Source: Paracoccaceae bacterium (GTDB lineage Bacteria; Pseudomonadota; Alphaproteobacteria; Rhodobacterales; Rhodobacteraceae). Taken from it: a stretch of 35,899 nucleotides of DNA. Position numbers and translations under genes: made by a program. Shown here piece after piece: positions 15,291 to 33,835 of this stretch. The stretch lies in the NCBI GenBank assembly GCA_020832705.1, contig JAFIEE010000015.1, forward strand, positions 1 to 35,899. The letters are read 5' to 3'. Positions within the stretch are counted from its first letter, which is position 1. Each line of letters starts with the position of its first letter. A model generated the notes under the pieces. That model did no database searches and had not been told where the DNA came from. It was given only the letters and a program-made list of their open reading frames with translations.

Positions 15291-16019
15291 CTATTCGGTC
15301 ACGCGCCGCCGCGCCTGGACCAGGTGATAGCGCATCAGCAACTCCGCGGCCTCACCGTCGCGGTTGCGGATCGCTTCAAGAATATCGCGGTGCTCGTTCA
15401 CCACGGTGTCCACTCGCAGCGCATCGCCCATTCTGGTCAGGGACTGGGCCACGCCGATCGCGCGCAGCATGACCGGGCGGGCCACATCCAGCATGTCGCA
15501 AAAGAGGTCATTGCCGCTGGCTCCGGCAATGGCGCGGTGCAGGTCGAAATCGGCCTGGCGCGACGGTTCGCGCGCGCGCATGGAGGCTTCCATCTCCGCC
15601 AGCTTGCGGGTGATCAGTTCCAGATCGGCGGAGGTGGCCCTGTGGGCGGCATGGCGCGCGGCCGCCGGTTCCAGCGCAAGGCGCGCCTCCATGCAGCGCA
15701 TGAGCGCGGCGACATCGCCGGCGCCGCTGTGTTCGATCAGTGCCTGCGGCGGGCGGCGGCGGACGAAGCTGCCGGCCCCCTGGCGCGCCACAACGATCCC
15801 GTCCGCCCGCAGGCGGGCAAAGGCTTCGCGCACTACGGGGCGGGAAACAGCGTATGTGCGGCACAGCTCGTTCTCCGAGGGCAGCCGCGCGCCTTCGACG
15901 AACCGGCCGGAAGCGATCATTTCCAGGATACGGCCATAGATATCATCGGCCAGCCGACGGCGCTGGCGGCCGTGGCCGCCATCTGGCGCGGCTGCGGGCG
16001 CATCGTTGCGTGCTGTCAT
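15291..16019 (-). CDS. GntR-family (FadR/FCD) transcriptional regulator 1
   Basis: A 242-residue repressor-type regulator. The winged helix-turn-helix spans about residues 22-90, with RLPSENELCRTYAVSRPVVREAFARLRADGIV, the GntR recognition segment. An FCD ligand-binding domain fills 105-230, with the conserved D-F-D-L-H-R-A-I run and NEHRDILEAI carrying metal/ligand His residues. Such proteins usually bind hydroxy, keto or sugar acids. It is divergent from the TPP-enzyme operon and lies 32 bases upstream of the IlvD/Edd gene. The palindrome between the divergent genes is the likely operator, so it may control both sides and itself. Confidence 0.88.
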   Translation of the reverse strand: MTARNDAPAAAPDGGHGRQRRRLADDIYGRILEMIASGRFVEGARLPSENELCRTYAVSRPVVREAFARLRADGIVVARQGAGSFVRRRPPQALIEHSGAGDVAALMRCMEARLALEPAAARHAAHRATSADLELITRKLAEMEASMRAREPSRQADFDLHRAIAGASGNDLFCDMLDVARPVMLRAIGVAQSLTRMGDALRVDTVVNEHRDILEAIRNRDGEAAELLMRYHLVQARRRVTE

Positions 16020-22079: not shown

Positions 22080-23096
22080 TTATCGGTGGATGCAGGCCTT
22101 GAAGTGCCCTGGCGCGGCTTCGACGAGGGGCGGCACCGTTTCGGCGCATTCCGGCGTCGCAATCGGACAGCGCGTGCGAAACACACAGCCGGATGGTGGG
22201 CGCAGCGGGCTGGGAATGTCGCCCTTCAGGATCTTGCGCTTGCGTGCCCGCGCCCGCACCGGATTGGCGATGGGCACCGCCGAGATCAGCGATTCCGTAT
22301 AGGGATGGCGCGGATTGTGATAGAGCGCGCTTGCAGGCGCGATTTCCATGACACGGCCCAGATACATCACCATGACCCGGTCGGCGATGTATTCCACCAC
22401 CCCCAGATCATGCGCAACGATCAGCATGGCAAGCTGCATTTCCTCCTGCAGGTCCTTCAGCAGGTTCATGACCTGCACCTGGATCGACACATCCAGCGCC
22501 GACACAGGTTCATCCGCAACCACGAATGTGGGATTGACCGCCAGCGCCCGCGCGATGCCCACCCGCTGACGCTGCCCGCCCGAAAACTCGTGGATGTAGC
22601 GGCGTATATGCTCCGGCCGCAGCCCGACCTTGTCCAGCAGGGACGCCACCCGATCGGGGATTTCCTTGCGCGGGATGATGTTGTGGACCAGCAGCCCCTC
22701 GCCGATCAGATCACCCACGGACATGCGCGGGTTCAGACTGGCATAGGGATCCTGAAAGATGAATTGCATCCGGCGCCGGAAGTCGCGCATTTCCGCGCCC
22801 CGCAACGGTGCGATATCGGTGCCGTCGAACAGGATTTCGCCGCTGGTGGGTTCCTGAAGGCGCAGGATCGTCTGGCCCACGGTGGTCTTGCCGGAACCGG
22901 ATTCGCCCACCAGAGCAACCACTTCGCCGCGCTGCATCGTGAAGGAAACATCCTCTACCGCGCGCACAATTCCGGCGCCGGCACCCAGCAGGCCCGCACG
23001 CAGCGTATAGTGTTTCTTCAGGTTCCGGACATCCAGCAAAGGCGACCCTGTCGTGGTGGCCCCGGAGGCGACGGCAGAGATTGCACGCGCGTTCAT
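22080..23096 (-). CDS. Peptide/opine-type ABC transporter ATP-binding protein (DppF/OppF-like)
   Basis: A 338-residue ATPase subunit. Walker A is [13 protein letters not shown], the signature is [16 protein letters not shown], Walker B is [16 protein letters not shown], and the switch His lies in [12 protein letters not shown]. The C-terminal oligopeptide extension is present, [23 protein letters not shown], with the Cys pattern typical of OppF/DppF. Its start overlaps the stop of the DppD-like gene (ATGA), so the two ATPases are made together. It energises import with the two permeases upstream in the operon. Confidence 0.93.
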
Positions 23097-24127
23097 GCCT
23101 GTTCTCCTGCAGCCTGTGCCAGCGCGAGTTCACGCCAGCGGATACAGCGGACCAGGTGATCGGCGGTATCTGTCGGTTCCAGTTCGGGGCGTGACTGTGT
23201 GCAGATGTCCCGTGCAAACCTGCATCGGGGGTGGAAGGCACAGCCGGGCGGAAGCGCGGTGGGGGAAGGCACGTTGCCCGGGATGGCCCGCAGCCGCGTG
23301 GACCCTTGCTGGGCAAGCCGCCCCAGTTCGGGGATCGAGTCCATCAACCCCTTGGTGTAGGGCATCCGGGGAGACTCGAACAGCGAGAACACATCCGCCG
23401 TTTCGACGGCCCGCCCGGCATACATGACCACCACCCGGTCGGCGACCTCGGCCACGACGCCCAGATCATGGGTGATGAACAGGACGCTCATGCCGATTTC
23501 CTTCTGCAGATCACGGATCAGCTCGAGGATCTGGGCCTGGATCGTCACGTCAAGCGCGGTTGTCGGTTCATCGGCGATCAGCAGTTCGGGGCGGCAGCTC
23601 AGCGCCATGGCGATCATCACGCGTTGACGCATTCCCCCCGAAAGTTCGTGCGGATAGGCGTCGGCGCGTGCGCCCGGGTCGGGGATGCCGACAAGCTCCA
23701 GCAGCTCGACCGCCTGTTTCCAGGCCTGGGTGCGTCCCTTGTTCTGGTGGAGGACGATTGCCTCGACGATCTGGTCGCCGACCTTGTAGACCGGGTTGAG
23801 GCTGGTCATCGGTTCCTGAAAGATCATCGCGATCCGGTTGCCCCGGATCCTGCGCATCTGGTTATCCGATTTGCCGAGCAGTTCCTCGCCATCGAAACGG
23901 ATGCTGCCGCTTTCGACCCGCCCGCCTTCAGCGAGAAGCTGCATGATCGACAAGCTGGTCACGGACTTTCCCGACCCGGATTCACCGACCACGGCCAGCG
24001 TCTCGCCGCGCTTGATGGTGAGCGAAAGGTTGTCCACCGCGCGCACCGGACCATTGTCGGTGTCGAACACCGTGGTCATGTTGCTGAGTTCCAGAAGCGT
24101 TTTATTCGACACGGGTGGCCTGCTCAT
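23093..24127 (-). CDS. Peptide/opine-type ABC transporter ATP-binding protein (DppD/OppD-like)
   Basis: A 344-residue partner ATPase with Walker [17 protein letters not shown] signature [16 protein letters not shown], Walker [17 protein letters not shown], and [16 protein letters not shown]. The C-terminal extension has [18 protein letters not shown], the Cys cluster of DppD/OppD. It overlaps the DppF-like gene by 4 bases. A 70-base gap separates it from the DJ-1/PfpI gene upstream. The transported compound cannot be told from the ATPases. Confidence 0.93.
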
Positions 24128-24197: not shown

Positions 24198-24758
24198 TCA
24201 ACTCCGCGAAGACGTCACAAAGGCGATCATCGCACGGCAGAACGCTCCCAGATCAGGCGGCGTGCGCGAGGTGATGAGGTTGCCATCCTGGACCACTTCC
24301 TGATCCAGCCATTCGGCCCCGGCATTGATGGCATCGTCCTTGATCTTGGCGACACAGGTGACCTTGCGCCCCTTCAGGATTCCGGCGGACACGGGCGTCC
24401 AGATCCCGTGGCAGATGGCGGAAACCATCTTCCCGTCGGCATTGAGTTGCTGGACCAGCGCCTTGACTTCGGGCAGGTGGCGCAGGTGGTCCTGCGAATA
24501 CCCACCCGGGCACAGCACGCCGTCATAATCCGCGGCCCGAGCATCGGCGACCTTCAGTGTCTTTTCATGGTACTGGCGGTGCTTCAGATACCAGTCGATC
24601 GCCAGATCGTGCTCGCCGCGTGTCGGTGCCTCGCCGTCTGCGGTCAGAAGGTGGATCTCGATCCCCTCTTCCTTCAGGCGCCAGATCGGATAGAGGATTT
24701 CCATCTCGTCCACCCAGTTGGCGGCAAGGACGGCAATTCTGGCGGGTCTGTCGGCCAT
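24198..24758 (-). CDS. DJ-1/PfpI family protein inserted in the ABC operon
   Basis: A 186-residue protein of the DJ-1/PfpI superfamily, whose members include cysteine amidases, glyoxalase III-type enzymes and, debated, proteases and deglycases. It opens [23 protein letters not shown] with the conserved Glu (DEMEI), has [14 protein letters not shown], and the nucleophile elbow [16 protein letters not shown] with Cys and adjacent His. It lies between the DppC-like and DppD-like genes in the same orientation with short gaps (33 and 70 bases), so it is very probably co-transcribed. Its position suggests it processes the imported compound, perhaps an amide or aldehyde intermediate. Confidence 0.88.
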
Positions 24759-24791: not shown

Positions 24792-25748
24792 TCAGTTGCG
24801 CAGCTTCACGTCCAGGTAATCGCGCAGCCAGTCCCCCAGCAGGTTGAATGACAGCACCGTCAGCGTGATCGCCACGCCGGGAAAGACTGCCAGCCATGGT
24901 GCACGCAGCATCAGATCGCGCGCCTGTGACAGCATGTTGCCCCAGGTCGGAATGCTTGGCGGCACGCCCAGGCCGAAGAAGCTCAGCGCACTTTCGTAAT
25001 AGATCGCCACCGCCAGCGAGAACGTGGCCACGATGACCAGCGATGACATCACATTCGGAGTGATGTAGAGCCGAAGGATCCGGAAATGCGACAGGCCCAG
25101 TGCGCGCGCGCCGTCGACATAGGGCGTCGCGCGGACCTTGAGCACCTCGCCCCGGACGATGCGCGCGTAATCGGCCCACTGTGTGATCGCGATGACCAGG
25201 ATAAGCTGCACCACGCCAGCCCCCAGAAGCCCCATCGCCACCAGGCCGATGAACAGGCTGGGGAAGGCAAGCTGCAGATCCACAAGCCGCATGATCACCG
25301 CATCCGTGCGCCCGCCCACATAACCGGCAATCAGTCCCATCAGGAAACCGATGCTGCCGCCCACAAGCACTGCGCACAGGGCGACGATCAAGGTCATGCG
25401 CGCGCCAACCACCAGCCGCGAGAACGCATCGCGACCCTGCTGGTCGGTGCCCAGAAGGTAGGTGATCGTCCCGCCTTCACTCCACGACGGCGGAACGAAG
25501 CGAGCGCCGAGATTGAGCGCGTTGACCGGATGGGGAATGAGTGCAGGCCCGAAGATCGCAGCAAATGCAATCGTCAGAAGGATGATGCAGGCGATCGTCG
25601 CGGTGCCGGAACGCAATATGGAACGCAGGACCCGCCGAATGCTGTCACGATAGGTGTCGGCGGGGCCGTCGCTGGCCGATTTCTCGTTCAATGCCGGTGT
25701 TGTGGACATGCTCGGGTCCTTGCTGGATGTGTCTTGCATAGCCTTCAT
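24792..25748 (-). CDS. Peptide/opine-type ABC transporter permease (DppC-like)
   Basis: A 318-residue membrane permease. It has a hydrophilic N-terminus of about 45 residues and a first TM helix (about 48-70). A soluble segment has LLGTDQQGRDAFSRLVVGAR, the hallmark of DppC/OppC, followed by five more helices including the EAA loop RGEVLKVRATPYVDGARALGLSHFRIL contacting the ATPases. It ends GDWLRDYLDVKLRN, typical of the family. Its start overlaps the DppB-like stop (ATGA). Confidence 0.93.
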   Translation of the reverse strand: MKAMQDTSSKDPSMSTTPALNEKSASDGPADTYRDSIRRVLRSILRSGTATIACIILLTIAFAAIFGPALIPHPVNALNLGARFVPPSWSEGGTITYLLGTDQQGRDAFSRLVVGARMTLIVALCAVLVGGSIGFLMGLIAGYVGGRTDAVIMRLVDLQLAFPSLFIGLVAMGLLGAGVVQLILVIAITQWADYARIVRGEVLKVRATPYVDGARALGLSHFRILRLYITPNVMSSLVIVATFSLAVAIYYESALSFFGLGVPPSIPTWGNMLSQARDLMLRAPWLAVFPGVAITLTVLSFNLLGDWLRDYLDVKLRN

Positions 25749-26677
25749 GACCGGCGCAGCCGCGGATCAAGCAGCGTGTAGATAACGTCCACGATGAAGG
25801 CGAGAACGACATACATGACGGCGACCAGGGTCAGCGCGCCGGCCACCACCGGAATATCCATCAGCCGGATGGAATCGAGCAGGAAGCGCCCGAAGCCGGG
25901 CCAGGAAAAGACGCTCTCGACGACCATGGAGCCGGAGATCAGCGATCCAAGCTGCAAGCCGCTGATGGTCACATATGGCAGCATGGCGTTGCGCACGACA
26001 TGGCGATACATCACGCGCCGCGGGCTCAGGCCCTTGGCGCGGGCGGTGCGCACGAAATCCTGCCCCATCAGCTCCAGCACGGCGCCGCGCATCATCCGCG
26101 TCAGATAGGCCATGGTCAGCAGCGACAGGGTGAAGACGGGCATGATCATGTATTTCAGCTTTTCGCCCAGGGTCTCGCCGCCCATGCCGGATGCGGGCAG
26201 CCAGCGCAGATGGATGGCGAACAGAAGGATCAGCATGATACCGACCCAGAAATTCGGTGCCGCCTGACCGACCAGCGCAAATGTGCGTGCGATGAAGTCG
26301 ATCGGACGGTTGCGGTGCATGGCGCTGATCACGCCGACCGGGATCGAAACGCAGATGGCAAGCAGCAGGGCAGGCACCGCGAGGATGATGGAATTTCCAA
26401 GCCGCGAAATCAGCAGGCCAAGGACCGGCTCCTGGTGACGATAGGACAGGCCGAAGTCGCCCTGCACGACACCCCACATGAACTGGCCATACTGAACGAT
26501 CAGCGGACGATCGAGGCCCATCTGCTGGCGGACACGGTCGATGGTTTCCTGGGTCGCATCGTCACCGATCCGCATGAGCACCGGATCGCCGATGATGAAC
26601 ATCAGGACGAAGGAGATTGATGCTGCGGCAAACAGGACAATGAAGCCGTGATACAGACGCTGGGCGATATAGGACAT
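25745..26677 (-). CDS. Peptide/opine-type ABC transporter permease (DppB-like)
   Basis: A 310-residue permease. It begins MSYIAQRLYHGFIVLFAAASISFVLMFIIGDP with the first TM helix, then GLDRPLIVQYGQFMWGVVQGDFGLSY, the conserved DppB/OppB periplasmic region, and further helices. The EAA-type loop is LMGQDFVRTARAKGLSPRRVMYRHVVRNAMLP. It ends DVIYTLLDPRLRRS, a common C-terminus of this family. It is separated from the solute-binding protein gene by 116 bases containing a strong hairpin, a usual way to keep binding-protein levels above permease levels. Confidence 0.94.
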   Translation of the reverse strand: MSYIAQRLYHGFIVLFAAASISFVLMFIIGDPVLMRIGDDATQETIDRVRQQMGLDRPLIVQYGQFMWGVVQGDFGLSYRHQEPVLGLLISRLGNSIILAVPALLLAICVSIPVGVISAMHRNRPIDFIARTFALVGQAAPNFWVGIMLILLFAIHLRWLPASGMGGETLGEKLKYMIMPVFTLSLLTMAYLTRMMRGAVLELMGQDFVRTARAKGLSPRRVMYRHVVRNAMLPYVTISGLQLGSLISGSMVVESVFSWPGFGRFLLDSIRLMDIPVVAGALTLVAVMYVVLAFIVDVIYTLLDPRLRRS

Positions 26678-26756
26678 CGTGGTTTCCGATCCGCTCGCAT
26701 ATCCGAGGCGTTTTGAACGTCAGGCAACCTGAACAGCGGCAGGCCCCCGGCTGGGT

Positions 26757-26785
26757 CCCGGAGGCGGCGCGGCGCCGCCTCCGGG
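26757..26785 (-). terminator. 12-bp GC hairpin between SBP gene and permease genes
   Basis: cccggaggcggc pairs perfectly with gccgcctccggg around a 5-base loop, 8 bases after the SBP stop codon. There is no T-run. Such structures after binding-protein genes commonly protect the 3' end of the SBP message or partly stop transcription. Confidence 0.55.
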
Positions 26786-26793
26786 GTGCGGTC

Positions 26794-28329
26794 TTATTCG
26801 ACCAGACGGATCTGGGCGAAGTCCTCGACCAGGAAGGACGGGTGCGGATAGTAATGCGCCACCCGGTCGCTGATCGCCCGGAACAGGGGCACACGGAACT
26901 GGGTCAGCCAGGGACCACCTTCGGCGTGCAGGATTTCCTGCATGCGATGGTTGATCTCGGTGCGGCGGTCCTGATCGACGGTCCGGACCAGTTCTGCGTA
27001 GAGATCATACCACTCCTGATTGAACCAGTTGGTCGAATTCGACGGCCGGTCCGGATGGGTCGCCCACATGTCGGTTTCCGGCGTGTTCTCGCCGGCAGAC
27101 CAGTGGTGCGCGTGCAGGTTCAGCGTGCCTTCGACATTGCGGGGCAGCCAGACCGGGCGCGACAGCATGTTCACCTGGCTGATGTTGATACCGACTTCCG
27201 TCAGATAGAAGGCGGCGGCTTCGGCCCAGTCGAAGGCATCGGGGTGCAGAACGTCCAGTTCGACCGTGAAGCCATCTGGGTATCCGGCCTCGGCCAGCAG
27301 TTCACGCGCCTTGTCCGGGTCGTAGCCATAGGGCTCCAGGTTGGGGTTGTGGTTCGGCGGATTGACCATCGTGACCGCCTGTTCCGCCTCGCCCAGGGCG
27401 AAGGCGTCGATCAGCGCCTGCGTGTCGATTGCCCATTGCATGGCCTGCAGAACCCGCGGGTCGTTGAAGGCTTCATGAAGGTTCACGTTCACGATCAGGA
27501 CAGCACGCACGAGGCTGTCGCCGACAATCAGGTCCACGCCTTCGGCCGCGCGCACGTCTTCGGCATTCGATGGCGACACGGGCGCGATATCCACCCCGCC
27601 GGTCAGAACTTCGGCGAGCATCGTCGCCGGTTCCGGAATGACGCGATAGACGAGGCGGTCGAAATTGGGCATCGGACCCCAGTAGTCCTCGTTCCGCTCC
27701 ATGACGATCCGCTGGTCACGGACCCATTCGACCAGCTTGAAGGGGCCGGTGCCCACCGGCATCCGCGATGACTCCTGCTGGCTCAGTTCGCTGTAATGCC
27801 CGGGCTCCAGGATGAAGGCCCCGTTGCGCGACAGGCGCTGCGGCAGGATCGGCACGGGTTCGTGCGTGACGATATGCACGGTGTAGTCATCAATGATGTC
27901 AACATGCGAGATCGGCACATCGATGATCTTGTCACCGGTTTCGAAGTCCGGATGATGCGGACGCTCGATGGAGAACTTCACCGCCTCTGCATTGAACGGG
28001 GCGCCGTTGTGGAAGGTCACCCCTTCGCGCAGCGTCAGCTCCCAGGTCAGATCGTCAATTGGCTCCCAGCTTGTGGCCAGCATCGGGCGCAAACCCGAGC
28101 GCTCGCCGTGTTCCTTGGACAGGTCGTAGTCCCAGATCAGCGGATCAAAAAGCGCAATGGTTGCGGGATGGTCGGCAATGCTGCCACGGGCCGAATGCGG
28201 ATCAAGGTCCTCGGCATCGGCGTAGATCCCCTAGGTCAGCGTTTGCGCGCCGGCGTGATGGATGCCGAATGGCATCAGTGCTGCGGCGGCCACGACGGGC
28301 AGCAGCGGTGAACGTGGTCTCATGGTCAT
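26794..28329 (-). pseudogene. ABC transporter peptide-type substrate-binding protein, interrupted by in-frame amber codon
   Basis: A gene of 512 codons including stop for a periplasmic family-5 (DppA/OppA-like) solute-binding protein. GGAGG precedes ATG 28329; residues 1-28 form a signal peptide (MTMRPRSPLLPVVAAAALMPFG, cut after GAQ or AGA). Codon 33 is TAG (28231-28233). The frame continues without another stop for 478 codons: GIYADAEDLDPHSARG, then WELTLREGVTFHNGAPFNAEAVKFSIE, ETGDKIIDVPISHVDIID and MNPNLEPYGYDPDKARELLAEAGYP-like segments ending SFLVEDFAQIRLVE. The ORF track shows only the part from the internal Met at 28092. TAG is one base change from TGG, CAG, TTG, TCG, AAG or GAG. It could be a recent nonsense mutation, a sequence error, or read-through; without a signal peptide no start downstream gives a working protein. 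Confidence 0.8.
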
Positions 28330-29026
28330 TCCGGATATCCTCCGTTGGTTGGAGCGCGACGAACAGGCGAGGGCCTGATCTGCACGCGGGATTCCGGCCA
28401 GCGCACCCGGAAAGGCGTGCAGGAACACCCGCCATCCTTCAGGGGGTTCTGGCCGGTGATGCAGCCGGGATGCCGGCTGCACGGCGAGGCGTACATCGCC
28501 CGTTTCGTCCCGGGGTGCGCGGGCGCCCCGACAGGGTTCTTTTCTGCACGCCCCTGCATGCGCTGCACGTCCGGTCGCCAGGCTGACCGGCGCAGCATGC
28601 GAGGCTGTTCATGGCGGGGCCGGGCGTCCGATGACCCGGCATTGATACGTCGAACTTCGGAGCGCGGCGCGTCTGCTGACAGGCACGCGCGGTGCGTGAT
28701 GCCGCTATCCGAACCGGCACGTGCCCCATCCGGGGGGCAGGGCCGTTGGTCGGCGGGGCTTGCACTCGCCGGAGTTGCGGCGACAAGACCCTCCGCGGCG
28801 CGCGTCACCTTTGGGGCGCCGATGTCATGGCGCAGCCGGGCCGGAGGTGGTGCCTTTGCGCTCCGCACGGCGCTGTCGGCGCAGTGCGCGCCGCCACGCT
28901 CAAGCCTGAGACTTGCGGCGCAGATCAGGGTGCCGTTGCCGGAAAGTCCAAACCCCAACTGCCCCTCCCTGCTTTGGTGCCTGGCGTGGCGGGCCGACCC
29001 CATGATCGACTCGAACTGTAATTTTA

Positions 29027-29055
29027 AATACAATGCATGCATGCCCGGATGTCAA
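29027..29055 (-). promoter_or_regulatory. Candidate sigma70 promoter for the SBP operon, overlapping TGTA-N8-TACA element
   Basis: On the minus strand TTGACA (29055-29050) is followed after exactly 17 bases by TGTATT (29032-29027). The -10 overlaps TGTATTTAAAATTACA (29032-29017), an imperfect palindrome matching 12 of 16 positions. ATGCATGC repeats lie in the spacer. This looks like a regulated promoter whose operator covers the -10. Confidence 0.5.
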
Positions 29056-29181
29056 GTGTGCTTTTTGCCCTCCTGCGTTCTTGGAGCTTCGGCGAAGGCG
29101 CGGGGCTTGCCGCGGGCGGCGATCTGCTCTGGATGCGTGGGGCTGATCGCACAAAACCATATGAAAAAAAACATAAAAAAT

Positions 29182-29223
29182 TGAATCATGCATAAACGGA
29201 AGCTTCAGCGCTGAATCTTGCAT
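29182..29223. repeat. Direct repeat TGAATC(A/T)TGCAT, 30-base spacing
   Basis: TGAATCATGCAT (29182-29193) and TGAATCTTGCAT (29212-29223) differ at one base and start 30 bases apart, about three helical turns, so both copies face the same side of DNA. They lie between the two divergent promoter candidates and may be binding sites for a dimeric regulator. Confidence 0.45.
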
Positions 29224-29290
29224 CATGCGCCGGAGTGCGGCTGCCGCGGCGCGGATGTTCCGGGCGCCGGTGGCGGCGCCTCGATGCGAA

Positions 29291-29320
29291 TTGACGTTTT
29301 GTATTTTATATGCGAGAGAA
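29291..29320 (+). promoter_or_regulatory. Candidate promoter for the VOC-hydrolase-GntR unit
   Basis: TTGACG (29291-29296), 18 bases, then GAGAAT (29315-29320, 4 of 6). The spacer contains TTGTATTTTATAT (29299-29311), which matches 11 of 13 positions of TTGTATTTAAAAT overlapping the minus-strand SBP promoter. The shared element suggests one regulator acts on both divergent promoters. Confidence 0.4.
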
Positions 29321-29348
29321 TCTATGGAACAGTCTTGGGAGAACTCTG

Positions 29349-29732
29349 ATGCGCTTTGCACACACGATGATACGCGTGAAGGATATCGACGAGTCGGTGC
29401 GGTTCTACACCGATATGCTGGGAATGACCCTGGAGCGGAAATTCGAGCTGCCCGGCGCCGATGCGACCCTTGCCTTTGTCAAGGACCCGGCCAGCGGGAT
29501 GGAGGTCGAGCTGACCTACAACCACGATGGCCGCGACTATGAATTGGGCGACGCCTTTGGTCATCTGGCGTTCTACGTGGCCAGCGTGGACGAAACCTTT
29601 GCTGCGCTCAAGGCAAAAGGGGTCCCGTTTTCGCTGGAGCCGAAGACCATGAAAAGCGGAACCAGGATCATGTTTGCCGTCGACCCCACCGGCTACAAGA
29701 TCGAATTCATCGAGCGCCCCGAGAAGCTCTGA
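29349..29732 (+). CDS. VOC family / lactoylglutathione lyase-like protein
   Basis: A 127-residue glyoxalase I-type metalloenzyme of the vicinal oxygen chelate fold. The four expected metal ligands are visible: His in MRFAHTMIRVKD, Glu in GMEVELTYNHDG, His in AFGHLAFYVAS, and Glu in PTGYKIEFIER. It has the RFYTDMLGMTL segment of glyoxalase I. ATG 29349 has GGGAG about 9 bases upstream; the track start is 13 residues earlier without an RBS. It heads a plus-strand unit and could isomerise a hemithioacetal formed from a reactive keto-aldehyde produced by the pathway. Confidence 0.85.
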   Translation: MRFAHTMIRVKDIDESVRFYTDMLGMTLERKFELPGADATLAFVKDPASGMEVELTYNHDGRDYELGDAFGHLAFYVASVDETFAALKAKGVPFSLEPKTMKSGTRIMFAVDPTGYKIEFIERPEKL

Positions 29733-29850
29733 GCGGCTCACGGCGCAGCCAGGCGGCCCATGCCGACAGGCAAGGCCGTCGGCGCACCCGGACTTCCGCG
29801 CCAGGGCGCGACCGGGATCGGCAAACCGCCACCATCCCATGAGGATCCTG

Positions 29851-30987
29851 ATGAAAGCATCCACGACCTCTTATGTCCCCGGTGATCTTGCGTCCTGGGA
29901 AAGTGTCGATCCGGCCGAAGCCGGGTTCGATCCGGGCCGCCTCGATCAGGTTGCCGAGTTTCACAGGGCCAATGAATCGCAATGGCCCAACAGCATGTAC
30001 ATGCCCAATGGCGAGTATGTCGGCACCGCCTATATCGAGGAAAAGCCCCCGCACAACACGGTGATCGGCCCTGTGAAGGAACGCGGCGGCCCCGCGGGCA
30101 TGATCCTGCGCGGCGGACGGATCGTTTCGCACTGGGGGGATATCGAGCGCCCGGACATGACCTTTTCCGTGGCCAAGAGCTTTCTGGGGGTTCTGGCCGG
30201 ACTTGCTGTCGAGCGTGGCTTGATACGGTCGCTGGATGACCGTGTGGCCGATTACGCTCTGGATGACGGTTTCGAAGGGCCGCACAACAGTGCGATCACC
30301 TGGCGCCACCTGTTGCAGCAGACCAGCGAATGGGAAGGCACCCTATGGAGCAAGCCGGATTCGGTTGACCGCAACCGCCAGGCCGGTCCGGGCGCCGTGA
30401 ATACGGCCAAGGGCGATGATCGCGACCTCAGCGCCCCTGGAACGCACTGGGAATACAACGATGTGCGCGTCAATCGCCTGAGCCTGAGCCTGCTGCAGGT
30501 ATTCCGGGAACCGCTGGACGAGGTGCTTGAACAGAGCATCATGACGCCGATCGGCGCGACAAACTGGGTCTGGCACGGCTACCACAACTCCCAGGTGGTG
30601 ATCGACGGCCGCGAAATGACGTCGGTGACCGGCGGTAGCCACTGGGGGGGCGGCTTCCAGATTCCCACCGATGCGCTGGCGCGCTTCGGGCTGCTGGTGT
30701 CGCGCAAGGGAGCCTGGAACGGTCAGCAGTTGATCCCCGCCACCTGGATCGACCAGATGCTTGAACCCTGCCATGCCAACCCGGTCTACGGGTTCATGTG
30801 GTGGCTCAACACGGACCGCAAGCTGCATCCTTCCGCACCTGCGACATCCTTCTTTGCGCTGGGCGCTGGCAGCAACGTCATCTGGATAGATCCGGAACTG
30901 GACATTGTCATGGTTGCCCGCTGGGTCGCGAAGGACAAGGTGGACGCGCTGGTCGGAACCGTGCGGGCGGCAATGACGGACACCTGA
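29851..30987 (+). CDS. Beta-lactamase-fold serine hydrolase
   Basis: A 378-residue enzyme of the class C beta-lactamase/D-aminopeptidase/esterase superfamily. The catalytic S-x-x-K is in MTFSVAKSFLGVLAGLAVERG (about residue 110), and the second-motif Tyr in HWEYNDVRVNRLSLSLLQ. The third motif appears as a Gly-rich SHWGGGFQIPTDALARFG. No signal peptide is seen, so it is probably cytoplasmic, arguing against an antibiotic-resistance role. GAGG precedes ATG 29851; a nearby ATG at 29839 is an alternative. It lies between the VOC and GntR genes and likely cleaves an amide or ester of the imported compound. Confidence 0.85.
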   Translation: MKASTTSYVPGDLASWESVDPAEAGFDPGRLDQVAEFHRANESQWPNSMYMPNGEYVGTAYIEEKPPHNTVIGPVKERGGPAGMILRGGRIVSHWGDIERPDMTFSVAKSFLGVLAGLAVERGLIRSLDDRVADYALDDGFEGPHNSAITWRHLLQQTSEWEGTLWSKPDSVDRNRQAGPGAVNTAKGDDRDLSAPGTHWEYNDVRVNRLSLSLLQVFREPLDEVLEQSIMTPIGATNWVWHGYHNSQVVIDGREMTSVTGGSHWGGGFQIPTDALARFGLLVSRKGAWNGQQLIPATWIDQMLEPCHANPVYGFMWWLNTDRKLHPSAPATSFFALGAGSNVIWIDPELDIVMVARWVAKDKVDALVGTVRAAMTDT

Positions 30988-31987: not shown

Positions 31988-33835
31988 TTAGGGTGCGGGG
32001 CGCCAGGGCAGATCAATCCAGCTTGCCTGCGCAGCCGACCCACTGCCGCGCCTGATCGTGATGTGCGGCGGGCGGCCATGGGGCAGTTGCATGTAATGGT
32101 CGCTGTCGGCCCCCGCAATCGACAGGCGGATGCGACTGCCCCGTGCAAAGCGCCATGCCGTTGGCAGCAGGGCAAACCGCAGTTCCGCCACCTCGCCGGG
32201 CACCAGCGGTGCGCTGTTGGCGCGGCTGAAATCCCGGTATGGCCAGGACCAGTTCTGCTCCGGGGGGGCGGGGGCGGTCATTCGGTGGAGCGCGCGCAGC
32301 ACGCCTTCGGTGACGTAGTGCAGGGACCCGTCGGCCGTCAGCTCCGACAGATAGACATGCAGCACGGCATCGGCCTCGCTCGCGCAGATGTTCAGGTTGA
32401 TGACGGGGTGGCCTGCGATCTCGCCTGCGCCTGAAAGCGGCGCGGTGGTCCAGGACAGCATCCTGGCTTCACGGATCGGCCAATCGGGATAATACTCGGT
32501 TACGGCCAGCGCCGAGAGACGTTCATACCGCGTCGATGTGCCCGTGCCATGCGAGAAATCAGCCTGGAAGCTGTCTGCGCCAGCGGGGCCGGGCACCTCG
32601 GCCAGCACACCGCCCGCATCAGGATAGAGCCGCAGGTTGCCCCCCGCGGGCGGCCAGCTCCGTGCCGCATTCCATTGCTCGGCGTGAAGGGTGAAGTAAT
32701 GGATCGGCGCCTCCGCCCGCAGGCCCGCGTCCCGCCCCGCGAGGTAGTGGTCGAAGAAACGCAGAACCTCGGCCATGATGGGAAAGCCGGGCGTGGCGTC
32801 CTGGCGCCAGGGGGATACATTGGTCCGCCCGCCATGATCCCAGGGGCCGATGAGCAAGTGCTGCGCAGGATTGGGCAAGGACAGGAAGCGCGCAATCGCT
32901 CCATTGCTGAATCCCGCCCCGTCCATCCACCCCGAGACGGACAGAACCGCCAGATCGGGCCGAAAGCCGTCGGCGTAATGACAGGGGTTGAAGGAATGGC
33001 TGCCGAAATCCGGGTCATAGGGCAAGCGGTCGTCGGAAAACCGGAACTCGGAGATGAAATCGGGCATGTGAAAATTGCCCCGATGCGCGGATATGGCCTG
33101 ATCTCTCAGCGTGCCGTCGGTGTCCTCGTCCACCGGATGGGGCCCGGCATAGTCGGGATTGTTGAAATACGGCAGTTTCGCAAGGATGTCGCGCCGATCA
33201 TGATCCAGGCCGACCATGATCTCATCATAGCTTTCCGCCAGACGATTGAGCAACACGCCGCCCGGATACAGGTGATCGGTATAGGTGTTCCAGACGGCGA
33301 AAAGCGGCGCAATCGCCTTGACGGCCGGGTGCCCGGTGCTGGCCAGGAAACACGCCGCCGCGCCCAGATAAGAGATCCCTGTCGATCCTATGGTCCCGTC
33401 CGACCAGGGCTGCGCAACGATCCAGTCGGCGATTTCGCCGAAGTCCTCGCGCTCGACCGGTGAGCGAAAGCTGTCGCGCGTTCCGAAACTGGCGCCGGTT
33501 CCCCGCACATCGACCGCGACAACCGCATACCCCCGAGGCACGAACGCATCACGGTAAAGCGCGATGTTGGGGCTGGCTTCGGTGCCGGGCGCATGCCCTT
33601 CACGCAGGGCAAAACGCCGATAATAGGGTGTCAGGATCAGGATGACGGGGAACCCCGCCGCCGGTCGATCGCCGCCTGCGGGGAGGTAGACATCCAACGC
33701 AATCCGGCAGCCGTCGCGCATTGTCACATAGTGCGACACGGGAACGGGCGGCACCGCGTGGGTTGGCGGCCTGTCGCTCAGGTAGTGCGAGGGCGCGCGT
33801 TCCCAGGCCAGGCTCTCCGCATCGCTGTCCGACAT
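31988..33835 (-). CDS. CocE/NonD family hydrolase (X-Pro dipeptidyl-peptidase-like)
   Basis: A 615-residue serine hydrolase of the cocaine esterase/alpha-amino-acid ester hydrolase/X-Pro peptidase family. The N-terminal alpha/beta-hydrolase part has VTMRDGCRIALDVYLP, DVRGTGASFGTRDSF and the nucleophile elbow GSTGISYLGAAACFLAST (Ser near 160). Later come LAVLSVSGWMDGAGF, carrying the family Asp, and LLIGPWDHGGRTN with the catalytic His. The C-terminal jelly-roll domain covers roughly residues 400-615 (PVINLNICASEADAVLHVYLSEL). No signal peptide. It is the last gene of a minus-strand unit after GntR 3 and an MDR oxidoreductase and converges with GntR 2. Substrate likely an ester or amide. Confidence 0.88.
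   Translation of the reverse strand: MSDSDAESLAWERAPSHYLSDRPPTHAVPPVPVSHYVTMRDGCRIALDVYLPAGGDRPAAGFPVILILTPYYRRFALREGHAPGTEASPNIALYRDAFVPRGYAVVAVDVRGTGASFGTRDSFRSPVEREDFGEIADWIVAQPWSDGTIGSTGISYLGAAACFLASTGHPAVKAIAPLFAVWNTYTDHLYPGGVLLNRLAESYDEIMVGLDHDRRDILAKLPYFNNPDYAGPHPVDEDTDGTLRDQAISAHRGNFHMPDFISEFRFSDDRLPYDPDFGSHSFNPCHYADGFRPDLAVLSVSGWMDGAGFSNGAIARFLSLPNPAQHLLIGPWDHGGRTNVSPWRQDATPGFPIMAEVLRFFDHYLAGRDAGLRAEAPIHYFTLHAEQWNAARSWPPAGGNLRLYPDAGGVLAEVPGPAGADSFQADFSHGTGTSTRYERLSALAVTEYYPDWPIREARMLSWTTAPLSGAGEIAGHPVINLNICASEADAVLHVYLSELTADGSLHYVTEGVLRALHRMTAPAPPEQNWSWPYRDFSRANSAPLVPGEVAELRFALLPTAWRFARGSRIRLSIAGADSDHYMQLPHGRPPHITIRRGSGSAAQASWIDLPWRPAP

Follow-up and report, generated by a model that had tools for sequence, protein, structure and literature searches.

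In the window, i.e. the whole stretch of 35,899 nucleotides analysed here, the gene of a solute-binding protein (SBP) is interrupted by a single in-frame amber codon directly after its signal peptide. We consider it probable, at roughly 0.68, that this is a lone nonsense substitution in an otherwise intact SBP gene; in the sampled population, it may be fixed or polymorphic. The feature is an ordinary single premature stop, and pseudogenes arisen by nonsense mutation are commonplace in bacteria. From the evidence given below, we infer that the organism really carries the change, that it arose recently, and that transport is abolished by it.

Results

On the minus strand, the TAG (28233-28231) is embedded in the context ...GCG CAA ACG CTG ACC TAG GGG ATC TAC... 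and constitutes codon 33 as counted from the ATG at 28329. One and the same frame holds GGAGGATATCCGGA-ATG, MTMRPRSPLLPVVAAAALMPFGIHHAGAQTLT, the TAG, GIYADAEDLDPH, 478 codons (28230-26797), and a TAA (26796-26794). The upstream ORF (28329-28234) consists of 32 codons beginning with the ATG; the signal peptide ends with AGA-QTLT, and a ribosome-binding site, GGAGGA, lies approximately 9 nt 5' of the start codon. When the whole genome was searched in six frames, a single match of 562 residues emerged, containing exactly one internal stop, a TAG. The central claim of the earlier note, that an in-frame amber follows immediately on the signal peptide of an ABC solute-binding protein, is thus confirmed: the frame is shared on both sides and contains one internal TAG. 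It was also correct in stating that the ORF track hides the interruption; the listed start at 28092 is a TTG and a mechanical artefact, located 46 codons inside the mature domain. The short minus-strand ORF ending at 28231, which the note joined to the downstream part, is indeed in frame; its listed start, GTG 28482, has to be replaced, as the likely true start is the ATG at 28329.

In a crude six-frame scan of the 35.9 kb, 10 sites passed as a ribosome-binding site combined with a signal-peptide-like N-terminus. Among these, the site of the SBP gene ends exactly where the SBP domain begins; since, moreover, homologues align through the stop, the continuity of the frame is more than chance. 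The export signal is present, but the TAG separates it from the SBP_bac_5 domain, so that no open frame comprises both. The coordinates of all features are compiled in Table 1.

Table 1. Features of the interrupted SBP gene and its operon in the window
Feature	Position	Strand	Evidence
Start codon and signal peptide MTMRPRSPLLPVVAAAALMPFGIHHAGAQTLT	28234..28329	-	Sequence, signal-peptide scan, alignment of homologous SBP N-termini
In-frame TAG (amber) codon	28231..28233	-	Sequence, frame; single internal stop in six-frame search
Family-5 solute-binding protein (SBP_bac_5), 478 uninterrupted codons and TAA	26794..28230	-	PF00496 E 2.7e-78; PDB 5u4o E 2.2e-48; GsiB/DppA structures
DppB/NikB-type permease, intact	25745..26677	-	PF00528 4.1e-42, PF19300
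DppC/NikC-type permease, intact	24792..25748	-	PF00528 2.2e-28, OppC_N
DppD-type ATPase, intact	23093..24127	-	PF00005 and oligo_HPY
DppF-type ATPase, intact	22080..23096	-	PF00005 and oligo_HPY

The alignment of homologues, which the earlier note had proposed as a means of identifying the residue at the site, proved informative. Among the 55 homologues covering the position, the residue aligned to the TAG is V in 17, I in 12, W in 8, F in 7, L in 4, A in 2, Y in 2, D in 1, and G in 1 case, with one gap; note that the set includes near-duplicates and that single alignments are approximate at identities of about 25-40%, while the column is clear overall. Because a hydrophobic or aromatic residue occupies this column in 52 of the 55 sequences, the TAG replaces a sense codon. 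In the mature protein, this column corresponds to the first hydrophobic strand. The note had also envisaged homologues that start downstream with a different signal peptide. These were not seen among the homologues examined, which carry their signal peptide at an equal distance from the site.

Following the stop, a part of 432 residues passes the curated cut-off of SBP_bac_5 (264.1 bits vs 32.4), and the structural relatives of the downstream part are 5u4o, GsiB/YliB (1uqw), and DppA structures. The designation "DppA-like" is appropriate at the level of the family and does not extend to DppA itself: the NCBIfam model NF043070 assigned 105.1 bits to the 432-residue piece, the cut-off for a DppA equivalog being 1005. 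Neither for the SBP nor for the permeases does any NCBIfam equivalog score above its cut-off; the substrate is therefore not settled. The closest SBP match (G363) shares 42% identity and also adjoins matching ATPases; those beside this homologue (locus L110) are 63% identical to the DppD-type and 66% identical to the DppF-type ATPase. A search for closer orthologs in the sets of relatives, family, class, genome contigs, plasmids, and viral contigs gave a best identity of about 42% for the SBP, and the best value for DppB was about 46%. With a best SBP match of 42%, a close relative in which the change segregates or is fixed was not found.

The SBP gene heads a dppBCDF-type operon encoding an ABC importer of the peptide/nickel type (family 5). 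Its neighbours are the cognate genes, namely two BPD_transp_1 permeases and two ATPases with ABC_tran and oligo_HPY domains; all four are open, as had been claimed for the rest of the operon. Between dppC and dppD, a PfpI/DJ-1-like deglycase gene is located at 24198-24758 (minus strand; 134.9 bits, just below the NCBIfam cut-off). The SBP gene and dppB are 116 nt apart, and between them lies a long, G+C-rich hairpin (26755-26786, minus strand; 13 pairs in the predicted fold); it resembles the hairpins that frequently follow genes of binding proteins and stabilise the mRNA or act as attenuators. About 1 kb on the upstream side of the SBP gene (28340-29300) is free of recognisable genes. There follow a lactoylglutathione-lyase-like gene (29310-29732), which precedes a serine hydrolase gene of the beta-lactamase family (29674-30987), and, adjoining this pair, a GntR regulator and a CocE/NonD hydrolase (31988-33835). 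Together with the transporter, these genes possibly form an uptake-and-hydrolysis cluster. The overlap of plus-strand ORFs at 29674-29732 had raised the suspicion of a frameshift in the serine hydrolase gene; as the upstream ORF is a separate and complete glyoxalase-like gene, there is no second lesion at this place.

Several properties of the SBP gene bear on the age of the lesion. The G+C content at the three codon positions of the 478 downstream codons is 0.68/0.40/0.80, similar to that of dppB-F, and a second lesion is absent, though 98 of these codons are one substitution away from a stop. That the coding composition was kept and none of the 98 stop-prone codons was hit points to a young event; the replacement of a sense codon in a gene free of other lesions is what characterises a recent nonsense pseudogene. 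In addition, the TAG is part of a CTAG, a tetranucleotide that occurs twice in the 36-kb window (about 14 expected) and 18 times in 147 kb from other loci of the same genome (about 105 expected). The second CTAG of the window is found at the TAG terminator of an MscS-like ORF (8446). CTAG is thus strongly avoided in this genome, and finding one within the SBP gene agrees with either a recent change or an error.

An error in the consensus or the assembly, or a mixture of strains, would mean that the organism possesses a sense codon and a functional gene at this locus. The avoided tetranucleotide is compatible with this explanation, as are the draft state of the assembly (272 contigs, 86.8% complete) and the fact that the TAG is the sole lesion within an otherwise intact gene and operon. 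On the other hand, internal stops are absent from 102 ABC_tran matches and from the 10 other family-5 SBP matches of the same assembly, which indicates that stop-making errors are rare in it; moreover, only about 3% of the single substitutions in the SBP gene yield a stop. We therefore regard an error as unlikely, while granting it a noticeable share of the probability. The weighting of a real mutation over an error reflects our judgement rather than a calculation.

The earlier note offered three explanations, a very recent lesion, an error, or tolerance through amber suppression. The lone lesion in an intact gene and operon is in agreement with the first two; suppression fared worse. If the amber were read through, by means of a suppressor tRNA, pyrrolysine, or a recoded TAG, the full-length protein would be made, and the intact downstream frame is in accordance with this. 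However, RF1 is present (475.8 bits vs a cut-off of 423), and TAG serves as an ordinary stop, terminating six of the 73 predicted genes in other loci as well as the GntR gene of the window (15291-16019). A look-up of suppressor tRNAs, which the note had suggested, found the CUA anticodon in none of the 28 tRNAs recovered from the incomplete assembly; all their anticodons are ordinary. As the tRNAs for Tyr, Ala, and Ile are among those missing from the recovered set, a suppressor tRNA retains a small probability. The search for PylS gave at most a 25-bit fragment and nothing above the cut-off, and pyrrolysine was rejected; no known RNA element was found around the site, and recoding by such an element was likewise rejected. 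The genome thus displays neither the loss of RF1 nor the PylS that would mark a TAG-recoding organism. With RF1 present, TAG used as a normal stop, no CUA tRNA among the 28 recovered, and no PylS above its cut-off, read-through of the SBP amber is unlikely, and we assign it a very small probability. Still more improbable is a variant according to which the amber is maintained in the population and low-level read-through by an uncatalogued suppressor tRNA, encoded in a part of the genome missing from the assembly, would set the dose of the SBP.

Alternatively, a functional protein might result from a restart of translation at TTG 28092 or ATG 28083, which are the next in-frame start codons. These sites, however, fall 46-49 codons inside the mature domain and possess neither a signal peptide nor a clear ribosome-binding site; a protein made from there would lack the first strand and remain in the cytoplasm. 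A functional restart product is accordingly very improbable.

Discussion

Given a nonsense substitution as the preferred reading, translation would begin at ATG 28329 and halt after 32 residues, giving rise to the signal peptide only. The exported binding protein would not be made, and uptake via the transporter would be lost or greatly reduced. In binding-protein-dependent importers, loss of the binding protein is established to abolish import; by analogy, import through the SBP-less transporter would be lost in this organism, too, and it is plausible that the stop silences the whole operon. The consequences for the cell could be tempered by the 10 further family-5 SBP matches of the genome, all of which are free of internal stops; one of these might take the place of the lost protein.

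A search of the literature found nothing relevant, and a lone stop in an SBP gene has no bearing on an open question. If real, the case adds another solute-binding protein that a single nonsense change has removed from an otherwise intact transporter. It also calls for caution, as ORF callers mask stops of this kind by taking an internal codon as the start.

Recent single-nonsense pseudogenes likewise contain one stop, with everything else, including the operon partners, intact; in contrast to these, the stop described here is known from one draft assembly. According to the NCBIfam cut-offs, the SBP is not an equivalog of DppA, GsiB, or NikA. With the family-5 SBPs DppA, OppA, GsiB, NikA, and AccA, it shares the domain, the signal peptide, and the place at the head of the operon before the order permease-permease-ATPase-ATPase; it differs from all of them in the premature TAG at codon 33.
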